NCBI GenBank assembly: GCA_902789225.1
Contig: CADANC010000001.1
Location: forward strand, 62,001 to 126,000
Origin: an uncultured Erysipelotrichaceae bacterium
GTDB taxonomy: Bacteria > Bacillota_I > Bacilli_A > RF39 > UBA660
Direction of reading: 5' to 3'
DNA length: 64,000 bases
Shown here: positions 27,362 through 37,142 of the stretch, in pieces
How positions within the stretch are numbered: position 1 is the first letter of the stretch
How the letters are laid out: every line of letters begins with the position of its first letter
Program-made: the position numbers and the translations under genes
The notes under the pieces: model-generated
What the model saw: only the letters and a program-made list of their open reading frames with translations
The model's database searches: none
Told to the model about the DNA's origin: nothing

Positions 27362-28080
27362 TTTTTAATAAAGTCTTTGCTTTTAAGATATAACCCCGTA
27401 TATCTTTCATAATAATCATCTAAGAAATTATTAATATCATTTTTAACTTCATCACTTACATCAAGTTTGCTAATCTTATCAATATCAACATAATAATACA
27501 TTCTTATCATTTGAACTGACTTAATATTAACTAAAGGTTCATCAGTATGGCAACTTCCACATACTAAACCACCACTACTACTAGAAAGAGTAACTATATC
27601 ATCACTGTTTCCACATAGAGTACATTGATCAAGTGAAGGTTTAACTCCTAAATAATCTAAATATTTAACTTCCAAAATATTTGTCAAAACAAAAGGATCT
27701 AATCCTTCATTTAACTTCACAAAAGTAGATATAAGTAGATTATATATTTCACTATCATCACTTTCTCTTAAAACTTGTTTAGTTAAATCTAAAATATAAG
27801 ATGCATAACTTATTCTCATTAAATCTTTTTCTATATTAGAAAAATCATTAATAATGTCAACTCCTATCAATGTTGATAAGCCTTTCTCTTTATAATAAAT
27901 ATGAAAAGTACCATATACTAATTTTCTACTTACTCCAGATAACTTAGACTTAATATTTCGACAACCTTTACTCATTATACCAATTAAGCCATATTCCTTA
28001 GTAAGAACATTTAGTATTTTGCTAGACTCACCATAATTAGTATCATTTAAAACAATGCCATCAATATCAATTATCTTCAT
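27343..28080 (-). CDS. recO: DNA repair protein RecO
   Basis: RecO loads RecA with RecR in the RecFOR gap-repair pathway. The 245-residue protein has the N-terminal OB fold (DGIVLNDTNYGESSKILNVL, GIMSKGCRNIKSKLSG). It also has the zinc-type cluster CTLCGNSDD...GGLVCGSCH in the C-terminal half, both typical. The ATG at 28080 is preferred to a TTG two codons earlier. It overlaps era by 14 bases. Last gene of the ybeY-dgkA-cdd-era-recO chain, the usual order in Bacilli. Confidence 0.93.
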   Translation of the reverse strand: MKIIDIDGIVLNDTNYGESSKILNVLTKEYGLIGIMSKGCRNIKSKLSGVSRKLVYGTFHIYYKEKGLSTLIGVDIINDFSNIEKDLMRISYASYILDLTKQVLRESDDSEIYNLLISTFVKLNEGLDPFVLTNILEVKYLDYLGVKPSLDQCTLCGNSDDIVTLSSSSGGLVCGSCHTDEPLVNIKSVQMIRMYYYVDIDKISKLDVSDEVKNDINNFLDDYYERYTGLYLKSKDFIKKVNLLS

Positions 28081-28951
28081 TTTCAAAACCTAATTCAGTA
28101 AGTAATCTAGTACTATTTCTCCAATCTTTAAGCGTCTTTACATATGTTTCTAACATTACTTTTTTACCTAAGAAATGTTCCATATCACGTCTAGCAAGAA
28201 TTCCTACTTCTTTAAGCATAGCTCCATTCTTACCTATTACTATCTTTTTAAGATTATCTCTATCTACTACAATTACAACTTTTATATTTACTGTCTTACC
28301 TGTATCAGTATATTCTTCACAATAACAACTTACTGTATGAGGTATCTCATCATGAGTAAGTAATAATAGTTTTTCTCTTACATATTCACTCATCATAAAT
28401 TTAAGAGAAACATTAGTAAGATCATCATCTTCATATATTTTTTCACCTTCAGGCAAGTACTTCTTAATAGTATTAATTAAATCATATATATTCTTTCTTG
28501 CACTAATAGGAATAATATCAACAAAGTTAGCTTCATCTTTAACTTTATCTATTATATCTAATATCTTACTCTTATCACTAACTAAATCAACTTTATTTAA
28601 AAGTAAAATAATTGGAATATTATCTTCTTTGATTCTATTTAGAATGAATTGATCTCCTCTACCATATCCAGCTTTAGCATCAACCATAAATAATATCAAG
28701 TCAGCACCTTCATAATTGTCATAACTCATTCTATTTGTAACTCTCTCTAACTCATTTTTAGGTTTATGAATACCAGGAGTATCTACAAAAATAATTTGAG
28801 AATCTTTATCATTATAAATACCATTAATAATATTTCTAGTAGTACCAGAAACATTAGATGTTATAGCAAGTTTTTCTCCTATTATTTTATTAAGTAAAGT
28901 GCTTTTTCCAACATTAGGTCTTCCTAATATACTAACAAATCCACATTTCAT
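28067..28951 (-). CDS. era: GTPase Era
   Basis: Era is an essential GTPase that binds the 3' end of 16S rRNA during 30S maturation. The 294-residue protein has G1 GRPNVGKST, G3 DTPG, G4 NKVD and G5 SARK, and a C-terminal KH domain (IVIGKNGAMLKEVGILARRDM). Its ATG overlaps the cdd stop (ATGA). Length is normal. Confidence 0.97.
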   Translation of the reverse strand: MKCGFVSILGRPNVGKSTLLNKIIGEKLAITSNVSGTTRNIINGIYNDKDSQIIFVDTPGIHKPKNELERVTNRMSYDNYEGADLILFMVDAKAGYGRGDQFILNRIKEDNIPIILLLNKVDLVSDKSKILDIIDKVKDEANFVDIIPISARKNIYDLINTIKKYLPEGEKIYEDDDLTNVSLKFMMSEYVREKLLLLTHDEIPHTVSCYCEEYTDTGKTVNIKVVIVVDRDNLKKIVIGKNGAMLKEVGILARRDMEHFLGKKVMLETYVKTLKDWRNSTRLLTELGFENEDN

Positions 28952-29337
28952 TTTAAATCATCTTCTCCAAAAGGATAAGGACATAATTCTTCTACTGTTA
29001 CACACAATACTTCTCCAGTATTAGAATAAAAGAAGCATTTTACATCTTTATCAAATAATTCTGATATAACTTGTCTACAAGCAAAGCAACTAGTACTAAT
29101 CTTATCACTATCTGCACAAAGACAATGTAGTTCTTTAAAATCTCCTTTTTTATATCCATTACTAATTGCAGCTAATATAGCACTTCTTTCTGAACAAATA
29201 GAAGAACCATAAGCAGCATTTTCCACATTAACTCCAGGTATTTCCACTCCATCTTTCATAACTAGAATAGTTGCTACTCTAAAATGAGAATATGGACTAT
29301 AAGAGTTATTAGCTAATTCTTTTAATTTATCTATCAT
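28948..29337 (-). CDS. cdd: Cytidine deaminase
   Basis: The enzyme deaminates cytidine and deoxycytidine in pyrimidine salvage. The 129-residue protein shows the zinc-binding and catalytic motifs ICSERSA (Cys-x-Glu; usually CAE) and SCFACRQ (usually PCGxCRQ), plus NVENAAYGSS. The Pro-Cys-Gly of the second motif is changed to Ser-Cys-Phe but both cysteines are kept. Start overlaps the dgkA stop by an ATGA-type junction. Confidence 0.94.
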   Translation of the reverse strand: MIDKLKELANNSYSPYSHFRVATILVMKDGVEIPGVNVENAAYGSSICSERSAILAAISNGYKKGDFKELHCLCADSDKISTSCFACRQVISELFDKDVKCFFYSNTGEVLCVTVEELCPYPFGEDDLK

Positions 29338-29765
29338 AAAGTACCTCCAAATAATGAAATAAATCTAGGTAAAAATATAATTAATCCTCCAATTATAGAA
29401 ACGATAACTAAAACTAAAGTTGCTCCACTAGCAGTATCTTTTGCTATTTTTGCTAAAGGATGCATCTCAGTAGTAGTCAAATCTATCGCAGCTTCAATTG
29501 AAGAGTTAATTAATTCAGTACACATTATCCCTCCAATTACTATAATAAGAAATAACCATTCATAAGGCTCAATTCTAAAATAAAATGATAATCCTACAAC
29601 AATAATAGTCGCAATAAATATAATTACCATATTATGTTCATATTTTAATGTATATATAATACCATCTATCGCATGATTAAAACTTTTCCAATATCTTTCT
29701 ATCCAAGTACCAGTATCTTTATTTCTTTTAGGACTTTTTCTTCTAAATCTATCTAGTAACCCCAT
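29334..29765 (-). CDS. dgkA: Diacylglycerol/undecaprenol kinase (DgkA type)
   Basis: This small integral membrane kinase phosphorylates diacylglycerol or, in Gram-positives, undecaprenol. The 143-residue protein has three membrane helices and the family motifs ELINSSIEAAIDL and AKIAKDTASGATL. The N-terminus is basic (LLDRFRRKSPKRNK). The ATG at 29765 lies inside the end of ybeY; a GGAGG is 12 bases upstream, longer than usual, so translational coupling to ybeY is likely. Confidence 0.92.
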   Translation of the reverse strand: MGLLDRFRRKSPKRNKDTGTWIERYWKSFNHAIDGIIYTLKYEHNMVIIFIATIIVVGLSFYFRIEPYEWLFLIIVIGGIMCTELINSSIEAAIDLTTTEMHPLAKIAKDTASGATLVLVIVSIIGGLIIFLPRFISLFGGTL

Positions 29766-30201
29766 ACTCGCTAAGTACCTCCTCTTGTTTACCAAACATA
29801 ACTTTTTCTTCTTCTTCATTCATATGATCATATCCCAACAAATGATAAAAACCATGTACAGCTAAAAAGCATATTTCTCTTTCAAAAGAATGACCATATT
29901 CAATAGCCTGTGATCTTGCTTTATCTATAGAAATATATATATCACCTAATATTCTCATATCACCAGGTAATTTAACACTATCTTCATCTTCTAAAGCAAA
30001 TGTAATAACATCAGTTTCCCTATCAATATCTCTATAATTCTTATTTAATTCATGAATATAGTTATTATCAACAATAATAACATTAAAACTAGTATTATTA
30101 AGTTTTTCTTTTTTCATACCAAATTCCAAGACTTTTTTTACCAAGTCTAATTCAGGAATATCTTCACTAGTTTGATTAAAAATCATTATTTCATTATCCA
30201 T
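29749..30201 (-). CDS. ybeY: Endoribonuclease YbeY
   Basis: YbeY is a zinc-dependent endoribonuclease for 16S rRNA 3'-end maturation and ribosome quality control. The 150-residue protein contains HGFYHLLGYDH, the diagnostic HGxLHLxGYDH metal site, and NKNYRDIDRETDVITFAL. It overlaps dgkA by 17 bases and heads the coupled chain that runs to recO. Confidence 0.96.
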   Translation of the reverse strand: MDNEIMIFNQTSEDIPELDLVKKVLEFGMKKEKLNNTSFNVIIVDNNYIHELNKNYRDIDRETDVITFALEDEDSVKLPGDMRILGDIYISIDKARSQAIEYGHSFEREICFLAVHGFYHLLGYDHMNEEEEKVMFGKQEEVLSEYGVTR

Positions 30202-30209
30202 AAAAACTC

Positions 30210-30818
30210 CTATATCAAAAATATAATATATATAACTAAACTAAATAACATGATAGATATTGCATCTAATAAGTATTCATTCTTTAATACTTTAGGTATT
30301 TTACTACCTATAAAATAAAATAACTTATAAAAGCAATAACCTAACATACCACCAATTACATTTAATATAATATCATCTACATCGAACACTCTGCCTATCA
30401 TCATTTGTACTAATTCAATAGATAAACTACATACAAAAGTTATAAATAAAGGTTCATAAAACTTTTTACTTTTAAGTATATAACTAATAAAATAACCAAA
30501 AGGTAAAAACAAACAAATATTTCCTATGACATTCTTAAAGAAACCATGACTCCATAGATCATATCTAGTAATCTCTTTAAAAGGAATAAAATTGTTAGTA
30601 GACCAAGACACAGTATCTTGAATAGTTACTATCTGGAATAAAGATAATATGTATATTATAAAAGTCAACATAAATAATTCTCTATATAAAGTAAAATGTA
30701 ATTCATTCTTTATTAAATATATTACTCTTAACATAATACATACAATAACAGTAATAACTATCATAGGTAATGTATCATATATTAAACCATGTAATGTACT
30801 AGACAAATAACTCTCCAT
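30210..30818 (-). CDS. VanZ-like membrane protein
   Basis: The 202-residue protein has five or six membrane helices. It carries the VanZ-family blocks NVIGNICLFLPFGYF and FDVDDIILNVIGGMLGY. VanZ proteins are linked to low-level teicoplanin resistance, but most homologues have no known role beyond the cell envelope. It has its own promoter, and ybeY starts eight bases after its stop, so it may head the ybeY operon. Confidence 0.85.
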   Translation of the reverse strand: MESYLSSTLHGLIYDTLPMIVITVIVCIMLRVIYLIKNELHFTLYRELFMLTFIIYILSLFQIVTIQDTVSWSTNNFIPFKEITRYDLWSHGFFKNVIGNICLFLPFGYFISYILKSKKFYEPLFITFVCSLSIELVQMMIGRVFDVDDIILNVIGGMLGYCFYKLFYFIGSKIPKVLKNEYLLDAISIMLFSLVIYIIFLI

Positions 30819-30839
30819 AAGTACTCCCTTTTCATATAT

Positions 30840-30868
30840 ATTTTACCCTAAAAACAATACTTTTTCAA
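30840..30868 (-). promoter_or_regulatory. Promoter of the vanZ-like/ybeY operon
   Basis: TTGAAA (30863-30868), 17-bp spacer, TAAAAT (30840-30845), followed by the AAAAGGGAG ribosome-binding site of the VanZ-like gene. Confidence 0.65.
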
Positions 30869-30882
30869 TTTATTAATAATCA

Positions 30883-30904
30883 TAAAAAAAGAACTATAGT
30901 TCTT
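30883..30904 (-). terminator. Terminator of yqeY
   Basis: Perfect palindrome AAGAACTATAGTTCTT (30889-30904) with a seven-T run on the minus strand, including the stop. Confidence 0.85.
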
Positions 30905-31337
30905 GTAACTTAGTTCTTATTATATTACTAACTTCTTTCATATCAGTTTTACCTTTAAGTTTAGAAGTAGCTTCTTTCATAATAGGTCCCATATCTTTTT
31001 GACTAGTAGGTTTAACTTCATCAAATATTTCATCTATTATTTTATTTACTTCTTCCATACTTAATTGTTCAGGTAAATATTTTTGTAAAATACTAATTTC
31101 ATCATTATATTGAGCAATCAAATCTTCTCTATTACCTTTTTCAAATTCAACAATAGATTCTTTTCTCATTTTAATTTCTCTATTAACAACATCAATTAAT
31201 AATTCATCATTAACTTCTCTTTTGTTATCAATTCTTTCTTTATCCATTCCAGCTTTAACTGCTCTAATAACTGCTAAACGTTCTTTCTCATGATTCTTCA
31301 TTGCTTCAACCATGTCTTTTTTTAATTCTTCTACCAT
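30894..31337 (-). CDS. yqeY: YqeY/GatB-tail domain protein
   Basis: The 147-residue protein matches the GatB_Yqey family: MKNHEKERLAVIRAVKAGM, ELLIDVVNREIKMRKESI, ILQKYLPEQLS and GPIMKEATSKLKGKTDMKEVS. The domain resembles the tRNA-binding tail of GatB, but the free-standing protein has no proven function. It follows rpsU, a very common arrangement in Bacilli. A terminator lies between the two genes, so some transcripts end after rpsU. Confidence 0.93.
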   Translation of the reverse strand: MVEELKKDMVEAMKNHEKERLAVIRAVKAGMDKERIDNKREVNDELLIDVVNREIKMRKESIVEFEKGNREDLIAQYNDEISILQKYLPEQLSMEEVNKIIDEIFDEVKPTSQKDMGPIMKEATSKLKGKTDMKEVSNIIRTKLQEL

Positions 31338-31370
31338 ATTTCCACCTCAATAATATTATATATCAAAGAA

Positions 31371-31398
31371 ATAAAAAAAGATAGATTAATCTCTATCT
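31371..31398 (-). terminator. Terminator of rpsU
   Basis: AGATAGA (31379-31385) / TCTATCT (31392-31398) followed by a seven-T run on the minus strand. Confidence 0.8.
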
Positions 31399-31589
31399 CT
31401 ATTATTTTGACGATTTCTTTTAGCAGCATTTTTCTTTCCTTCTTTTTCAGCTGCTCTTCTTCTAACACCAGGTTTATCGTAACCTTCATGTTTTTTGGTT
31501 TCTTGAGGGATGCCGTTTTTGTTAACTTTAGCTTTAAATTTCTTTAGAGCTTGATCCAAATTTCCTCTAACTACAACTTTAGTTGCCAT
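31386..31589 (-). CDS. rpsU: Small-subunit ribosomal protein S21
   Basis: The 67-residue basic protein contains VVVRGNLDQALKKFKAKVNKNG and KPGVRRRAAEKEGKKN, typical of S21. S21 assists initiation at the 30S platform. It has a near-perfect promoter and an unusually good ribosome-binding region (GGGAGGGATAAGG). Confidence 0.95.
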   Translation of the reverse strand: MATKVVVRGNLDQALKKFKAKVNKNGIPQETKKHEGYDKPGVRRRAAEKEGKKNAAKRNRQNNRDRD

Positions 31590-31626
31590 CTTCCTTATCC
31601 CTCCCTTCGGTTTTCAACTAAAATGA

Positions 31627-31655
31627 ATTATAGCAAATATTTCTTTAAATTACAA
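31627..31655 (-). promoter_or_regulatory. Promoter of rpsU
   Basis: TTGTAA (31650-31655), 17-bp spacer, TATAAT (31627-31632), about 40 bp before the start codon. Confidence 0.75.
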
Positions 31656-31711
31656 CATTTTTATGAGAAAAATAGATTTTTTTTGACAAAAAAGCATCAA
31701 ATTTTAAAAAA

Positions 31712-31831
31712 TTAGCCACATCTTATTAAATTACCAATAATATTACCAAAATCATAAATATATGCTAATAAATATCCAAAAAGTGATATTAATAATATTA
31801 TTAATATAATTTTAACTATTTTGTAGGACAT
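31712..31831 (-). CDS. 39-residue membrane peptide, candidate bacteriocin immunity protein
   Basis: An ATG at 31829-31831 opens a 39-codon frame that overlaps the end of the second GG-leader peptide gene by 16 bases and runs to TAA at 31712. The product starts MSYKIVKI, has one membrane helix (ILIILLISLFGYLLAYIY) and ends GNIIGNLIRCG with a single Cys. Position as the last gene behind two bacteriocin-like precursors, small size and a single helix are what many class II immunity proteins show. It has no GG leader. No strong ribosome-binding site precedes it, so coupled translation is assumed. It is easily missed because of its size. Confidence 0.5.
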   Translation of the reverse strand: MSYKIVKIILIILLISLFGYLLAYIYDFGNIIGNLIRCG

Positions 31832-31986
31832 AAATCATCATCATGCATTCTTCTTATTGCTCCTCCAAAACCAGTACCAGCATCATATAGAGTTTGAATA
31901 ATTTTTACTATTCCATTAACTACTCCAGCACTAAGAGAATCCCCTCCTCTAATTTTTTCTAATTCACTATCACTAACTTCCTTCAT
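31816..31986 (-). CDS. Double-glycine-leader bacteriocin-like peptide B
   Basis: The 56-residue precursor has a 15-residue leader, MKEVSDSELEKIRGG, ending in the GG processing site. This is the pattern recognised by C39-peptidase exporters (ELxxIxGG). The 41-residue mature part is an amphipathic, glycine-rich peptide with a GxxxG (GVVNG), GTGFGG, a basic pair RR and one Cys near the end (DDDLCPTK). The start at 31986 has a strong GGAGGTG; an upstream in-frame ATG overlaps the previous gene without a ribosome-binding site. It overlaps the first peptide gene by 14 bases. No known bacteriocin is recognised by sequence. Confidence 0.75.
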   Translation of the reverse strand: MKEVSDSELEKIRGGDSLSAGVVNGIVKIIQTLYDAGTGFGGAIRRMHDDDLCPTK

Positions 31987-32140
31987 TATTACACCTCCCT
32001 GGATTAGTATAGCCATTAAAAACGCCTGATAAGAAAACAACCAAAGAGACTACTCCAATACCAATAAGAACAATTAAGGTAGTTGTACCTATCGCACCAC
32101 CAGTAACTCTTTCTAGTTCATTATCATTTAAAACTTTCAT
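31973..32140 (-). CDS. Double-glycine-leader bacteriocin-like peptide A
   Basis: The 55-residue precursor has a 15-residue leader, MKVLNDNELERVTGG, very similar to that of the next gene. The 40-residue mature part is strongly hydrophobic (LIVLIGIGVVSLVVFLSG), has a GxxxG (GVFNG), and ends hydrophilic with one Cys (NPGRCNNEGS). The ATG at 32140 follows AAAGGAGGTAAT, an optimal site. The frame stays open upstream to 32245, but this extension would put 35 hydrophobic residues before a canonical leader and was rejected. Together with the next peptide it looks like a class IIb two-peptide bacteriocin. Confidence 0.75.
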   Translation of the reverse strand: MKVLNDNELERVTGGAIGTTTLIVLIGIGVVSLVVFLSGVFNGYTNPGRCNNEGS

Positions 32141-32260
32141 ATTACCTCCTTTCAAAGACATCATATAGAATAAGAAAAAGAAGGTCAAACAACCAAAAAT
32201 AAGTTTTAAAAAGAGCTTTTTTATCAAAAATAAAAAACATACCATAAAAAAGCATTTTTC

Positions 32261-32269
32261 AATATAACA
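32261..32269 (-). promoter_or_regulatory. Possible extended -10 of the GG-peptide cluster
   Basis: TGTTATATT about 120 bp upstream of peptide A, with no convincing -35. A second candidate (TTGACC with TATATG) lies closer to the gene. The 32141-32311 stretch otherwise holds only AT-rich leader sequence. Confidence 0.3.
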
Positions 32270-32308
32270 ATAAATTCAAAATACAAATTTAATATTTTTA
32301 TTTATTTA

Positions 32309-32337
32309 ACAAAAAAAGATATCAAAAGATATCTTAT
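32309..32337 (-). terminator. Terminator of corA
   Basis: AAGATATC (32316-32323) / GATATCTT (32328-32335) with a seven-T run on the minus strand, separating corA from the GG-peptide cluster. Confidence 0.85.
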
Positions 32338-33278
32338 AACATATTTTTCTTATATAAAATTATCGCAACAACCACTGAAATAACTACACTAACAATAAAT
32401 ATTCCTAATGCAGAAAAAGGATTATTAGCTAACTCTCCTAAAGGAACATTCATACCTAAGAAAGAACTTATCATAGTAGGAACACTAATAACTATAGTTG
32501 CTCCAGCTAAGAATTTCATTATTTCATTTAAATTATTACTAATAATTGTTCCATAAGTTTCAGTAATACTACTTAAGATGTTTCTATAGATTTCAGATTG
32601 TTCAATAGCCTGTTTATTTTCAATTATTGCATCTTCAAGTAAATCATCATCACCCTCAAATAAAGGTAATACTACTCCTTTACTTAATTTATCTAAAACT
32701 AAGTCATTTGCTTTTAATGATGTAAGAAAATATACTAATGTTTTTTCTAAATCTAGCATATCTAATAAATCTCTATTACTAGTAGATTTAGATAAAAATT
32801 CTTCTTTTAATTCAATCTTTCTATTAACTACTCTTAATGCTCGAATATAAGCTTGAGCAGTATTATATAAAATTTGAATAACAAATCTAGTCTTTTTAGC
32901 AGTTCTAAAATCTTTAACTTTATTTTTCTTAAAATTAGTTAATATTTTGTTTAGACTAGGACTAACTGTAATAACAAAGTTATTATTAGTAACAATAATA
33001 CCTAATGGACTAGTATTATAAACAAAATGATCTTCATCACTTTCTAAATAAGGAGTATCTATTACTATTAATACAGCATTACCAGATTCTTCAATACGAG
33101 GTCTTTCTTCATCATCTAACATCTTTAAAATAAGATCTTCATCTATACCAGTAATCTTAACTACTTGTTCTATTTCTTCTTTATCCGGCGATACCATATC
33201 AATCCATGAATTTTCTGTAATAGTTTTAGCTTTTTTCAATTTCTTTTCTACTGCAGTAGTCTTATAAAATTTTAACAT
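32334..33278 (-). CDS. corA: CorA-family magnesium/divalent cation transporter
   Basis: The 314-residue protein has a large cytoplasmic N-terminal domain and two C-terminal helices. The first ends with GMN (SFLGMNVPLG), the signature of CorA channels, and the second is IFIVSVVISVVVAIILY. It forms pentameric Mg2+ or Co2+ channels. Located between the GG-peptides and an unknown gene on the same strand; it has its own terminator. Confidence 0.93.
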   Translation of the reverse strand: MLKFYKTTAVEKKLKKAKTITENSWIDMVSPDKEEIEQVVKITGIDEDLILKMLDDEERPRIEESGNAVLIVIDTPYLESDEDHFVYNTSPLGIIVTNNNFVITVSPSLNKILTNFKKNKVKDFRTAKKTRFVIQILYNTAQAYIRALRVVNRKIELKEEFLSKSTSNRDLLDMLDLEKTLVYFLTSLKANDLVLDKLSKGVVLPLFEGDDDLLEDAIIENKQAIEQSEIYRNILSSITETYGTIISNNLNEIMKFLAGATIVISVPTMISSFLGMNVPLGELANNPFSALGIFIVSVVISVVVAIILYKKNML

Positions 33279-33298
33279 AATATCACCTTCCTATCTTT

Positions 33299-34618
33299 TT
33301 ATTTAACTAATACTCTACCCTTCTTATTATATGTTTCTATTATATCATCAAAAGGAGTCTTACTTACATTATCATGTTCAATAACATCATTAACTCTGTC
33401 TTTATATCTTTCACTTCGTTGAATAATTCTAAAAGCTCTATCATCACCACTATTTTTTATATAGTTTATAATATGTTGTTTATCACTAAGACTAAGATCT
33501 AATAAATCTGCAGGCAATACGTATATAGCATTACCTTGTCCACCACGAGATTCTCTCTTATTAGCATAAAACTTAACAAATACTAAATAGTCATTATCAT
33601 AAACATATCCAAAATAACCATCAAATCTATTTAGACCAGCTACTTTAGTTTTATAAGGAGTACTTTCAAAGAAATCAATCTTATCCTTTACAGCAGCAAT
33701 TTCTTCTTCACTCATTTGATAACTATTTCTCTTTGTAACTTCACTAACAGTAATTCTTTTGTCATCAGCATGTCCTGGTCTAATTAATGCAAATGTATCA
33801 AGCAAAGTAACATTATCCATTAAGTTACCACTTCTATTAAATAAATCAGGATTAGACTGTTTTAATGAATCATATTTATCATTAAAACAATTATATCCAA
33901 GATATCCTATACCATTAACATAACACTTATGAGCAAATGGACTACTTCCTATACTAGAAACTCTATCATAATAATAATTAGGTAATATACACAAATCACT
34001 ACTATTAGTTCTTTCCATAATATCAAGTGCATTAATACTACAAGCATATAAAATATCTTTAGGTAAAGAATCATTATTTAATCTATCTGATTCAAGATTA
34101 GTAATATCTAAAATTCTATCAATATTTTTAATACTATAATTAATAAAATCTATATAATTATTTTTACCTAAATTACTATAAATCATATTTTTTCTTAAAT
34201 AATAATTTATACCATCAAAGAATTCTTCATCACTTTTACCAGCAATATCACTTTTCAAAGCATCTAATTTTTCTATAATTAAATCTTTATCCTTATGAGT
34301 AATAATCTCATCACTACCTGCTTCACTTAAAATAGAATTAAAAAATGATACAGGAGTAATCTCTAATTTCCATCCATCATCATAAACTAAACTAGGAGTA
34401 ATTGCATTTCTAAAACTATATCTAAAATCTCTAAATCTATATCCAAATATCTGACTTAATAACAAACTATTTTGATAAGCAATTTCTTTTGTAGCAGCAC
34501 TATAATGTCTAAATACCCCTCCATATGATTCCCTATTTACAGGATATTCCATAGAATCTTTAGGTATAAAACATAACATATCATTATATCCAATATCTCC
34601 ATATATTTTATCAAACAT
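33299..34618 (-). CDS. Hypothetical 439-residue protein
   Basis: The protein has no signal peptide or membrane helix. Recognisable landmarks are RESYGGVFRHYSAATKEIAYQ split across residues 28-48, a middle region rich in Asn/Asp/Tyr, and a basic segment YANKRESRGGQGNAIYVLP near the C-terminus. I recognise no family. It has a good promoter and a GGGGG ribosome-binding site and is followed after 20 bp by corA, with which it may be co-transcribed. It sits between the exporter pair and the GG peptides, so a role in that system is possible but unsupported. Confidence 0.65.
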   Translation of the reverse strand: MFDKIYGDIGYNDMLCFIPKDSMEYPVNRESYGGVFRHYSAATKEIAYQNSLLLSQIFGYRFRDFRYSFRNAITPSLVYDDGWKLEITPVSFFNSILSEAGSDEIITHKDKDLIIEKLDALKSDIAGKSDEEFFDGINYYLRKNMIYSNLGKNNYIDFINYSIKNIDRILDITNLESDRLNNDSLPKDILYACSINALDIMERTNSSDLCILPNYYYDRVSSIGSSPFAHKCYVNGIGYLGYNCFNDKYDSLKQSNPDLFNRSGNLMDNVTLLDTFALIRPGHADDKRITVSEVTKRNSYQMSEEEIAAVKDKIDFFESTPYKTKVAGLNRFDGYFGYVYDNDYLVFVKFYANKRESRGGQGNAIYVLPADLLDLSLSDKQHIINYIKNSGDDRAFRIIQRSERYKDRVNDVIEHDNVSKTPFDDIIETYNKKGRVLVK

Positions 34619-34645
34619 AATATAGACCCCCTAAATATGGCCTAT

Positions 34646-34674
34646 ATTATATCACAAAACACTTAAAATCACAA
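34646..34674 (-). promoter_or_regulatory. Promoter of the 439-residue hypothetical gene (and corA)
   Basis: TTGTGA (34669-34674), 17-bp spacer, TATAAT (34646-34651) preceded by TGA (extended -10); start codon 28 bp downstream. Confidence 0.75.
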
Positions 34675-34681
34675 TAAAATA

Positions 34682-35062
34682 TTACTTATATATAATTCTA
34701 AAAATATCTATAAGTCTATTATTTTTATAAAAAATATAACTAACTATAATATCTTCATTAATAGATTTATCTAAACTAATTTTAACTTCACTATATTTTT
34801 TATCATCTCTTTTCATAATATTTCTATTTACTTCAATTATTTTATATCTATATTTTCTATTATTAATATAAATAACTTTATTATTATTAAGTAATTCTAA
34901 ATCTTTTTTATTTACAATTAATTCATATTTATTATTATTCAAATGTATTAAATTAAATTCTTTATATTCTTTTATTTTATAGTTACAAGAAATTATTAAT
35001 AAAATGAATAATCCAATAATAAATATTATAAAAATACTAATTACATTAAAATTATTTTTCAT
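34682..35062 (-). CDS. Small membrane-anchored accessory protein of the peptide exporter
   Basis: The 126-residue protein has one N-terminal membrane helix (ISIFIIFIIGLFILLIIS) and an external, mostly beta-type domain (KYELIVNKKDLELLNNNKVIYINNR split; KISLDKSINEDIIVSYIFY). It starts inside the last codons of the ABC exporter gene with GAAGG seven bases before the ATG, so the two are coupled. By position and topology it resembles a shortened HlyD/membrane-fusion-type accessory protein of bacteriocin exporters, lacking the long coiled-coil and lipoyl parts. This assignment is inference. Confidence 0.6.
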   Translation of the reverse strand: MKNNFNVISIFIIFIIGLFILLIISCNYKIKEYKEFNLIHLNNNKYELIVNKKDLELLNNNKVIYINNRKYRYKIIEVNRNIMKRDDKKYSEVKISLDKSINEDIIVSYIFYKNNRLIDIFRIIYK

Positions 35063-37103
35063 AAATATTACCTTCATCAAGTACTAAACATCTATCAAAT
35101 AAATTTTTATTATTATTTCTATGACTAATTATAATAATTGTCTTATCTTTATAATATTTAAATATATTAGTAAGTATCTTTTTCTCTCTATAAATATCAA
35201 TCTGATTAAGAGCTTCATCAAATATATAAATATTACTTTTTCTAAATAATGCTCTAGCAAGCACCACTCTTTGTTTTTCCCCGCTACTAAAATTAAATCC
35301 ATTCTCTTCAACCATTTTTTCTAAATCAAAACTAATTAAGCACATATCTTTTAATTTATTAATCTCTTCTAAATCATAATCTTTATACATACAAATATTA
35401 TTAATTAAAGTATCATTAAACAAATATTCATTATTATTAACATAAGAAATATTTGCTCTAATAGATTCTAAATGATAATGATTAATATCAATATTATTAA
35501 TTGAAACAATTCCATATTCAATTAAAATATATCTCATTAATATTCTAAATAAAGTAGATTTCCCACTACCACTCTTACCAGTAATAAGAATCTTTTCACC
35601 ACTTTTAATAATTAAATTCAAATTATTAAATAATACTTTATTACCTATTTTATAATTAAGATTACAAAACTTTATATTACCATTTAAATCATAAGGTAAA
35701 AAATAATAAGAATCTTTAAAAAATTCATAATTAATATTAAATAAATCATCTATTCTTCTTCTACTAATACTATAAGAACTATAATTATTAATAATACTAA
35801 TAATTCTTTTAAAACTACCTAAATAATAATTAAAAAAATTAATATAAATAAACAATTCTATAATACTAATTTTATCTATTATTACAAAATAACTTCCAAA
35901 TAAATATATAAATACAATTAATATATTATTAATTAATTCATCTATAAAATTAAAAATATAATTATTTTTAATATATTTATAATTACTATTAATTAACTTA
36001 TTATAATTAATCTTATATTCATCAATTAAACGTTTCTCTATATGATTATTCTTTATAGTAATAAAATTATTAATACCTTCAATTAACTTAGTATTAACAA
36101 TATCTTCTTTTATTTTTACTCTCAATAGTTTATTCTTTAAAACATTTTTCTTTAATATATTAATAAGCAATATAAAAACAGAATAAATGATTACTAATAA
36201 AGTAATCTTCATGCTAATATTAAACATAAAAATAATAAATACTATAATTGATACAATATCACTAAATAAAAATATTAATATATTAGTAATAAATTCTCTA
36301 ATTACATTTAGATCTTTCAATCTATTAATAATTTCACCTGTAGATCTATTTTTATAATACGTAAAAGGAAGTAATAATAATTGTTTAAATATTTTATTAT
36401 TAAGAATAAAATCTAGTTTATTTATAAGTTTTAAACTAATAATATTAATCTCTATTGAATTAATATTTTTAAAAATATATATTACTAAAATAAAATAACT
36501 AATAATATACAAATTACTAGTAATATCATAATTAATACTAAAGTCTACTAAATACTTAAAATGAAAAGATAAAATAATACCTAAAATGAAATAAATTATA
36601 GTTAAGACTGATAATATAAATACAAGTGTCTTATTACTTATAATAAATTGTTTTATAGTATCTCTTACTATTTTTTTATACTTATAAACAGGAATCTTTT
36701 TGTTAGGAGTTAAATAAATAAAGTTTCTAGTACTAAGAAGTGATAATTCAGAAAAACTAATTGATCTTTTTCCAATACTCGGATCCATTATAATTATTTT
36801 ATCTTTAGAATCATTCATCTCATATATAACAATAAAATGTTTTATATTTATATTAATCACAGTATGAGCAATTACAGGCAACTTACTTCTATCAATATCA
36901 TCAATTTCTCCATGTACCCCTACTGCATCAAAACCAATTTTTTTAGCACAATTAATTAAACTCAATGCACTAACTCCATCTTTAGAAGTATTAGTATATT
37001 CTCTTAGTATCTCTTGTGATATATCTCCTCCATAATATCTAATAATAGATAATAAACAAGCTACTCCACAATTCTTTTCTCCATCTTGTATTACCACTTT
37101 CAT
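35052..37103 (-). CDS. C39-peptidase ABC exporter (bacteriocin processing and secretion)
   Basis: The 683-residue protein fuses three domains. The N-terminal C39 peptidase (1-130) has Cys12 in EKNCGVACLL, His89 in IKHFIVIYE and Asp107 in IIMDPSIG, a complete triad for removing double-glycine leaders. A membrane domain of about six helices (150-440) follows. The nucleotide-binding domain has Walker A TGKSGSGKST (508-517), signature FSSGEKQRV (605-613), Walker B IYIFDEA and the H-loop SHR. The Q-loop glutamine appears replaced (YVNNNEYLF), an oddity. The start at 37103 follows GGGTGAT; the ATG four codons upstream lacks such a site. The GG-leader peptides at 31.8-32.1 kb are its likely cargo. 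Confidence 0.9.
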   Translation of the reverse strand: MKVVIQDGEKNCGVACLLSIIRYYGGDISQEILREYTNTSKDGVSALSLINCAKKIGFDAVGVHGEIDDIDRSKLPVIAHTVININIKHFIVIYEMNDSKDKIIIMDPSIGKRSISFSELSLLSTRNFIYLTPNKKIPVYKYKKIVRDTIKQFIISNKTLVFILSVLTIIYFILGIILSFHFKYLVDFSINYDITSNLYIISYFILVIYIFKNINSIEINIISLKLINKLDFILNNKIFKQLLLLPFTYYKNRSTGEIINRLKDLNVIREFITNILIFLFSDIVSIIVFIIFMFNISMKITLLVIIYSVFILLINILKKNVLKNKLLRVKIKEDIVNTKLIEGINNFITIKNNHIEKRLIDEYKINYNKLINSNYKYIKNNYIFNFIDELINNILIVFIYLFGSYFVIIDKISIIELFIYINFFNYYLGSFKRIISIINNYSSYSISRRRIDDLFNINYEFFKDSYYFLPYDLNGNIKFCNLNYKIGNKVLFNNLNLIIKSGEKILITGKSGSGKSTLFRILMRYILIEYGIVSINNIDINHYHLESIRANISYVNNNEYLFNDTLINNICMYKDYDLEEINKLKDMCLISFDLEKMVEENGFNFSSGEKQRVVLARALFRKSNIYIFDEALNQIDIYREKKILTNIFKYYKDKTIIIISHRNNNKNLFDRCLVLDEGNIYEK

Positions 37104-37142
37104 ACTATCACCCATTATATTATTAGGAAAAAGTAACTATTT

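Follow-up and report, generated by a model that had tools for sequence, protein, structure and literature searches.

Two-peptide bacteriocins are usually strain-variable weapons. Among the described systems, CibABC is universal in Streptococcus pneumoniae and occurs in 26.9% of S. mitis (PMC13059744). The immunity mechanisms of class IIb bacteriocins are poorly understood; CbnZ, which provides immunity to carnobacteriocin XY, is a protein of 42 residues with a single transmembrane domain (PMC6957408). Here we analyse P1 and P2, two peptides with double-glycine (GG) leaders, together with the short open reading frame (ORF) that follows them, ORF3. They are encoded on a 64,000-nucleotide stretch (the window) of contig CADANC010000001.1 of an uncultured bacterium assigned to RF39/UBA660, a placement that fits an order dominated by a single family and made up of small genomes (PMC10868615, PMC13155120). 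The locus is a real, conserved and near-universal two-peptide export module, and the pair is a syntenic family trait, not a sporadic bacteriocin cluster. We found no published description of it in the open-licence literature.

On the minus strand (32140-31712) the three ORFs P1, P2 and ORF3 are arranged so that each start overlaps the preceding end, by 14 nt between P1 and P2 and by 16 nt between P2 and ORF3 (Table 1). The first-pass annotation of this DNA, made from the sequence alone, had reported three overlapping tiny genes here, the first two being GG-leader precursors each preceded by a strong ribosome-binding site (RBS), and this description holds: the sites read AAAGGAGGTAAT-ATG for P1 and GGGAGGTGTAATA-ATG for P2. 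It had also called the leaders near-identical, which overstates their likeness, as only 9 of the 15 residues are the same. ORF3 has no leader and no recognisable RBS before its start and overlaps the end of P2, and its translation is therefore likely coupled to that of P2. The promoter-like site upstream of P1 (TTGACC-17-TATGAT) matches a sigma-70-like consensus, which is not proof of a promoter; it is also present in the sister genome L093 (rumen metagenome-assembled genome (MAG) RUG343), and such sites are no more numerous in the region than in shuffles. The sister genome is 91% identical to the window in DNA across the cluster region, with P1 and ORF3 unchanged in amino acid sequence, P2 differing in its leader only and all other differences being synonymous. 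Since hundreds of genomes conserve the pair and its mature sequences are fixed against this 91%-identical sister, the three-ORF observation is confirmed as real and far beyond chance.

Both mature peptides carry a GxxxG motif and one cysteine near the C-terminus, and both features are invariant (58/58 P1 and 60/60 P2 sequences). The GxxxG motifs had been noted before: GVFNG of P1 is indeed invariant family-wide, but the motif singled out in P2, GVVNG, is not conserved, and it is GTGFG that is. P2 additionally has a near-invariant RR, and P1 retains a proline ahead of its cysteine. A hydrophobic helix of the membrane class is found in 55 of the 58 P1 sequences, their average charge being neutral. 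P2 is amphipathic with a median charge of +2, and is modelled as one long helix spanning residues 20-49; a search of solved structures with the P2 profile returned nothing relevant. A C39 peptidase/ATP-binding cassette exporter (PCAT) lies nearby. It had been overlooked in the first-pass annotation and adds support as a dedicated, presumably cleaving exporter: it is the sole C39 peptidase match in the window's genome, and its catalytic residues are in place, Q10, C16, H93 and D111 being invariant among 16 aligned exporters.

ORF3, too, is real, and a membrane protein this short and with one helix has a precedent in CbnZ (PMC6957408). The cluster had been read as following the order peptide-peptide-immunity; a small membrane ORF does follow the two peptides, but the immunity label is doubtful, given that ORF3 resembles P2 and is absent from many relatives that keep both peptides. 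In aligned ORF3 sequences a GxxxG is almost invariant, and xxIR or a similar motif usually comes after it. Aligned by hhalign to mature P2, the ORF3 profile scores 29.9 (P 5.6e-7), whereas none of 300 column shuffles exceeds 13.5; the reversed profile scores 11.1, and P1 and another membrane helix give 5.6 and 5.8. Because this score is so far above the shuffled, reversed and P1 controls, ORF3 looks like a leaderless P2-like peptide that its own helix anchors, and this likeness suggests a role as decoy or in immunity. A P1-binding decoy would fit the ORF3 motif, and the repeated loss of ORF3 speaks against strict immunity.

The first-pass annotation had staked its claim on conservation in relatives, and this proved extensive. 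A single-sequence P2 search matched 168 of 193 genomes of the family. With a P2 profile, 227 of 241 genomes of the order were positive, all of them belonging to one family; as a yardstick, ribosomal protein uS9 was sought in this set and detected in 225 of the 241. A sample drawn from the whole class gave 51 positives among 54 family genomes; outside the family 10 of 341 genomes matched, all through the leader, and none had a full-length P2. P2 is thus confined to the family and, judged at the level of completeness that these assemblies have, roughly as universal there as a ribosomal protein. The exporter was detected in 176 of 186 family genomes. Genomes lacking both exporter and peptides exist, and the two that were checked resemble assembly gaps: in G157 the contig breaks beside yqeY, and in G080 yqeY was not found. 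Joint loss of exporter and peptides was therefore dropped as a sign of functional linkage. No P2 was found in plasmid and phage collections; four viral contigs with a partial match to P2 residues 24-54 were taken as chance matches. The class is Bacilli, and those relatives that have names are MAGs from gut and rumen carrying the labels Bacilli, Tenericutes, Erysipelotrichaceae or Bacillales.

Median identities among relatives are 0.40 for mature P1 and 0.41 for mature P2, compared with 0.33 for the exporter and 0.19 for its accessory protein (ACC). Pairwise P1 and P2 distances correlate with those of the exporter, YqeY and S21, the latter two as expected for mainly vertical descent. When the window is compared with L033, a genome of the same genus, P1 is 45% and P2 51% identical, as against 81% for YqeY, a divergence that may hint at changing specificity.

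The reading we prefer, which we hold with about as much belief as doubt, is that P1 and P2 are a membrane-active pair of class IIb-like type, ancestral and passed on vertically, that forms a core trait of the family and has a putative bactericidal role. PCAT, assisted by ACC, would cleave both leaders after GG and export the peptides. Mature P1 would span the membrane as a hydrophobic helix and mature P2 would form an amphipathic one, the two pairing through their invariant GxxxG faces and possibly locked by a disulfide between their single invariant cysteines. The pair would then insert into the membrane of a target cell, competing relatives being the likeliest targets. ORF3, as a leaderless, membrane-anchored P2 look-alike with the same GxxxG-xxIR motif as P2, would probably occupy P1 within the membrane of the producer itself, with a protecting or restraining effect. 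We favour this because of the GG leaders with a C39 exporter nearby, which in most relatives is directly upstream, the invariant GxxxG and cysteine, the helix types and the near-universality of the pair. The tracking of exporter, YqeY and S21 distances, the fixed mature sequences in the sister genome, the match of ORF3 to P2 and the CbnZ and CibABC precedents point the same way; CbnZ in particular indicates that an immunity protein of this length can be functional (PMC6957408).

Several observations weigh against this reading. Near-universality across some 150 genera, combined with vertical inheritance, is unusual for bacteriocins, as is the fact that, in most close pairs, the exporter evolves at least as fast as P1 and P2 do; the average P1 is uncharged, and the mature peptides match no known bacteriocin family. 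ORF3, found in the window and in 35 of 59 relatives, is missing or decayed in the remaining approximately 40%, which retain P1 and P2, and at least 12 gains or losses are forced on the exporter tree, so that an essential immunity function is doubtful; streptococci show the reverse, namely orphan immunity genes (PMC13059744). The main rival, which we judge possible but on balance unlikely, is that the two peptides, once exported and paired by GxxxG, remain with the producer and build a small structural or pore-like complex in its membrane or envelope, with ORF3 as a dispensable non-exported modulator. Such a housekeeping role would agree with a P2 frequency on a par with that of uS9, a chromosomal locus tied to rpsU with no copies in the plasmid and phage collections, mature sequences more conserved than either PCAT or ACC, and the frequent loss of ORF3 while P1 and P2 stay. 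It sits less well with the leader, the GxxxG pairing and the order peptide-peptide-small ORF, all typical of class IIb, and with the comparison of the window and L033, in which half of the P1 and P2 positions differ at a YqeY identity of 81%, a pattern resembling a change of specificity. We see somewhat less chance that the pair forms a near-universal membrane complex of essential or envelope function for which a leaderless paralogue of one subunit serves as membrane decoy; were this true, the decoy would represent self-protection or regulation in which a toxin-like subunit is mimicked.

Some GG-leader peptides that leave the cell through C39 transporters are pheromones of the ComC type, and one or both peptides might accordingly be signals sensed by AgrC/ComD-type kinases. 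We regard this as improbable: although 128 of 145 family genomes encode GHKL kinases, no kinase or regulator adjoins the cluster, and their distribution does not follow that of P2, with kinases missing from several P2-bearing genomes (e.g. G036, G056 and G089) and present in the P2-less G066 and G100. Nor are two helical peptides with invariant GxxxG motifs pheromone-like. Still less credible is an ordinary, sporadic class IIb cluster with ORF3 as a standard immunity protein, the form in which the locus had originally been interpreted. Gene order and anatomy agree with it, as does the CbnZ precedent (PMC6957408), but the distribution is not sporadic, ORF3 is P2-like and repeatedly absent, and the mature sequences have no homology to known bacteriocins. 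The earlier interpretation is thus partly supported.

Table 1. Features of the peptide locus and of two other groups of GG-leader loci.
Feature	Location	Strand	Description
P1 precursor	31973..32140	minus	55 aa
P1 leader	32096-32140	minus	15 residues, ends GG; MKVLNDNELERVTGG
P1 mature part	31976-32095	minus	hydrophobic-helix peptide; AIGTTTLIVLIGIGVVSLVVFLSGVFNGYTNPGRCNNEGS
P1 GxxxG	32012-32026	minus	GVFNG, invariant
P1 Cys50	31991-31993	minus	invariant
P2 precursor	31816..31986	minus	56 aa
P2 leader	31942-31986	minus	15 residues, GG leader; MKEVSDSELEKIRGG
P2 mature part	31819-31941	minus	amphipathic-helix peptide; DSLSAGVVNGIVKIIQTLYDAGTGFGGAIRRMHDDDLCPTK
P2 GxxxG	31864-31878	minus	GTGFG, residues 37-41, invariant
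P2 Cys53	31828-31830	minus	invariant
ORF3	31712..31831	minus	39 aa, MSYKIVKIILIILLISLFGYLLAYIYDFGNIIGNLIRCG; one membrane helix, then P2-like GxxxG-xxIR motif
ORF3 GxxxG	31733-31747	minus	GNIIG
Promoter-like site	32160..32188	minus	TTGACC-17-TATGAT, upstream of P1
PCAT	35052..37115	minus	687 aa; C39 peptidase/ABC exporter, presumed to cleave GG leaders and export both peptides
ACC	34682..35062	minus	126 aa; accessory protein, start overlaps PCAT end
Two intervening genes	32334..34618	minus	unrelated; separate exporter from peptides
CorA transporter	32334-33278	minus	
439-aa protein of unknown family	33299-34618	minus	no Pfam family
rpsU	31386-31589	minus	conserved downstream neighbour
yqeY	30894-31337	minus	conserved downstream neighbour
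MRKL...GGEAIT...LPGG...W peptide	L189:1151-1330, L190:3970-4149, L191:3782-3958		GG-leader peptide, two other Bacilli families
130-aa GG-leader protein	L186:3539-3931, L192:1470-1862		leader P2-like, family f4

Among 60 relatives the usual gene order is PCAT-ACC-P1-P2-(ORF3)-rpsU, often with yqeY next, and the exporter lies directly upstream of the peptides in most. The two genes that intervene in the window are present in the sister genome too and missing from most relatives. An ACC-sized ORF between PCAT and P1 is missing in 11 relatives. ACC itself is modelled as one membrane helix with an outer beta domain (predicted local distance difference test score 95.8); a fold search with it gave nothing under E 0.001, and what similarity there was, to membrane-fusion proteins including 5xu0, was weak. 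In one relative (L067:6300-7000) a methyltransferase-like gene occupies the expected position of P1, which was not found there, and P2 is intact. As for the genomes more broadly, AgrC/ComD-like GHKL kinases are common in the family, often several per genome, despite the small genome sizes. RF39 is reported to have lost fatty-acid synthesis (PMC6784871), with which a ketoacyl-synthase match of FabF-like length in the window's genome sits awkwardly.

PCAT is related to the Mbov_0121 exporter family and ACC to the mycoplasma MAG1140 family, the latter at E 2.8e-6, below the cut-off. In mycoplasma-like genomes that read TGA as tryptophan (L173-L177) the order is PCAT-ACC-ybeY-cdd-era, and the window matches this wider order over 28067-37115 (PCAT-ACC, then ybeY and dgkA-like, cdd-like and era-like genes, named from synteny and ORF sequence); because of this correspondence the exporter locus appears to be older than the family. 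In the mycoplasma-type locus the exporter and a small one-helix protein lie directly upstream of ybeY-cdd-era, in agreement with the wider order here. The two differ in that no convincing P1- or P2-like peptide was found next to the exporter or elsewhere in the five mycoplasma-like genomes. Two other GG-leader products came to light: a conserved peptide (MRKL...GGEAIT...LPGG...W) between apparent valS and radC genes in two other Bacilli families, and a 130-aa protein (MQKLK..ELKDIKGGAASGALLNGIG...) with a P2-like leader in small-genome relatives of the class.

The mature sequences had been described as unfamiliar, and without their leaders neither P1 nor P2 matches any curated bacteriocin model. 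The P1 precursor scores 22.1 bits against TIGR03949 (the lactobin A/cerein 7B family; cut-off 21.5), and 32 of 42 P1 sequences match this model at E <=0.01; mature P1 alone does not match, the match of the whole precursor being carried by the leader. P2 scores 25.8 bits against NF038034 (lactococcin G-beta/enterocin 1071B), under the cut-off of 37, and its mature part alone scores 13 bits. As the mature parts match no model and the matches stem from the leader, we claim no membership of a named family, and the pair may be called class IIb-like by its anatomy.

A pair with this distribution would be either a two-peptide bacteriocin fixed more widely than any other that we know of or a use of the architecture for a core cell function. 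The carriers are almost all members of a large family of small-genome, uncultured gut bacteria; a bacteriocin would act in the gut of ruminants, rabbits and other animals. The P2-like ORF3 offers a simple, testable model for immunity by mimicry. With class IIb systems of the lactococcin G, lactobin A/cerein 7B and carnobacteriocin XY types the locus shares two adjacent GG-leader precursors, GxxxG in both mature peptides (all 58 P1 and 60 P2 sequences), a dedicated C39 exporter with accessory protein, here separated from the peptides by two unrelated genes, and a small downstream membrane ORF. Unlike these systems, it has a single invariant cysteine per peptide, matches no curated family without the leaders, is family-wide and vertically inherited rather than strain-variable, and has a downstream ORF that is P2-like and often missing. 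CibAB/CibC is likewise a universally present two-peptide bacteriocin, but within one species, whereas the figure here is approximately 94% of the genomes sampled across a whole family. ORF3, compared with CbnZ by description, is similarly very short, with one membrane helix, and encoded directly after the two peptides; in contrast, it has a motif in common with its own P2, and many relatives dispense with it.
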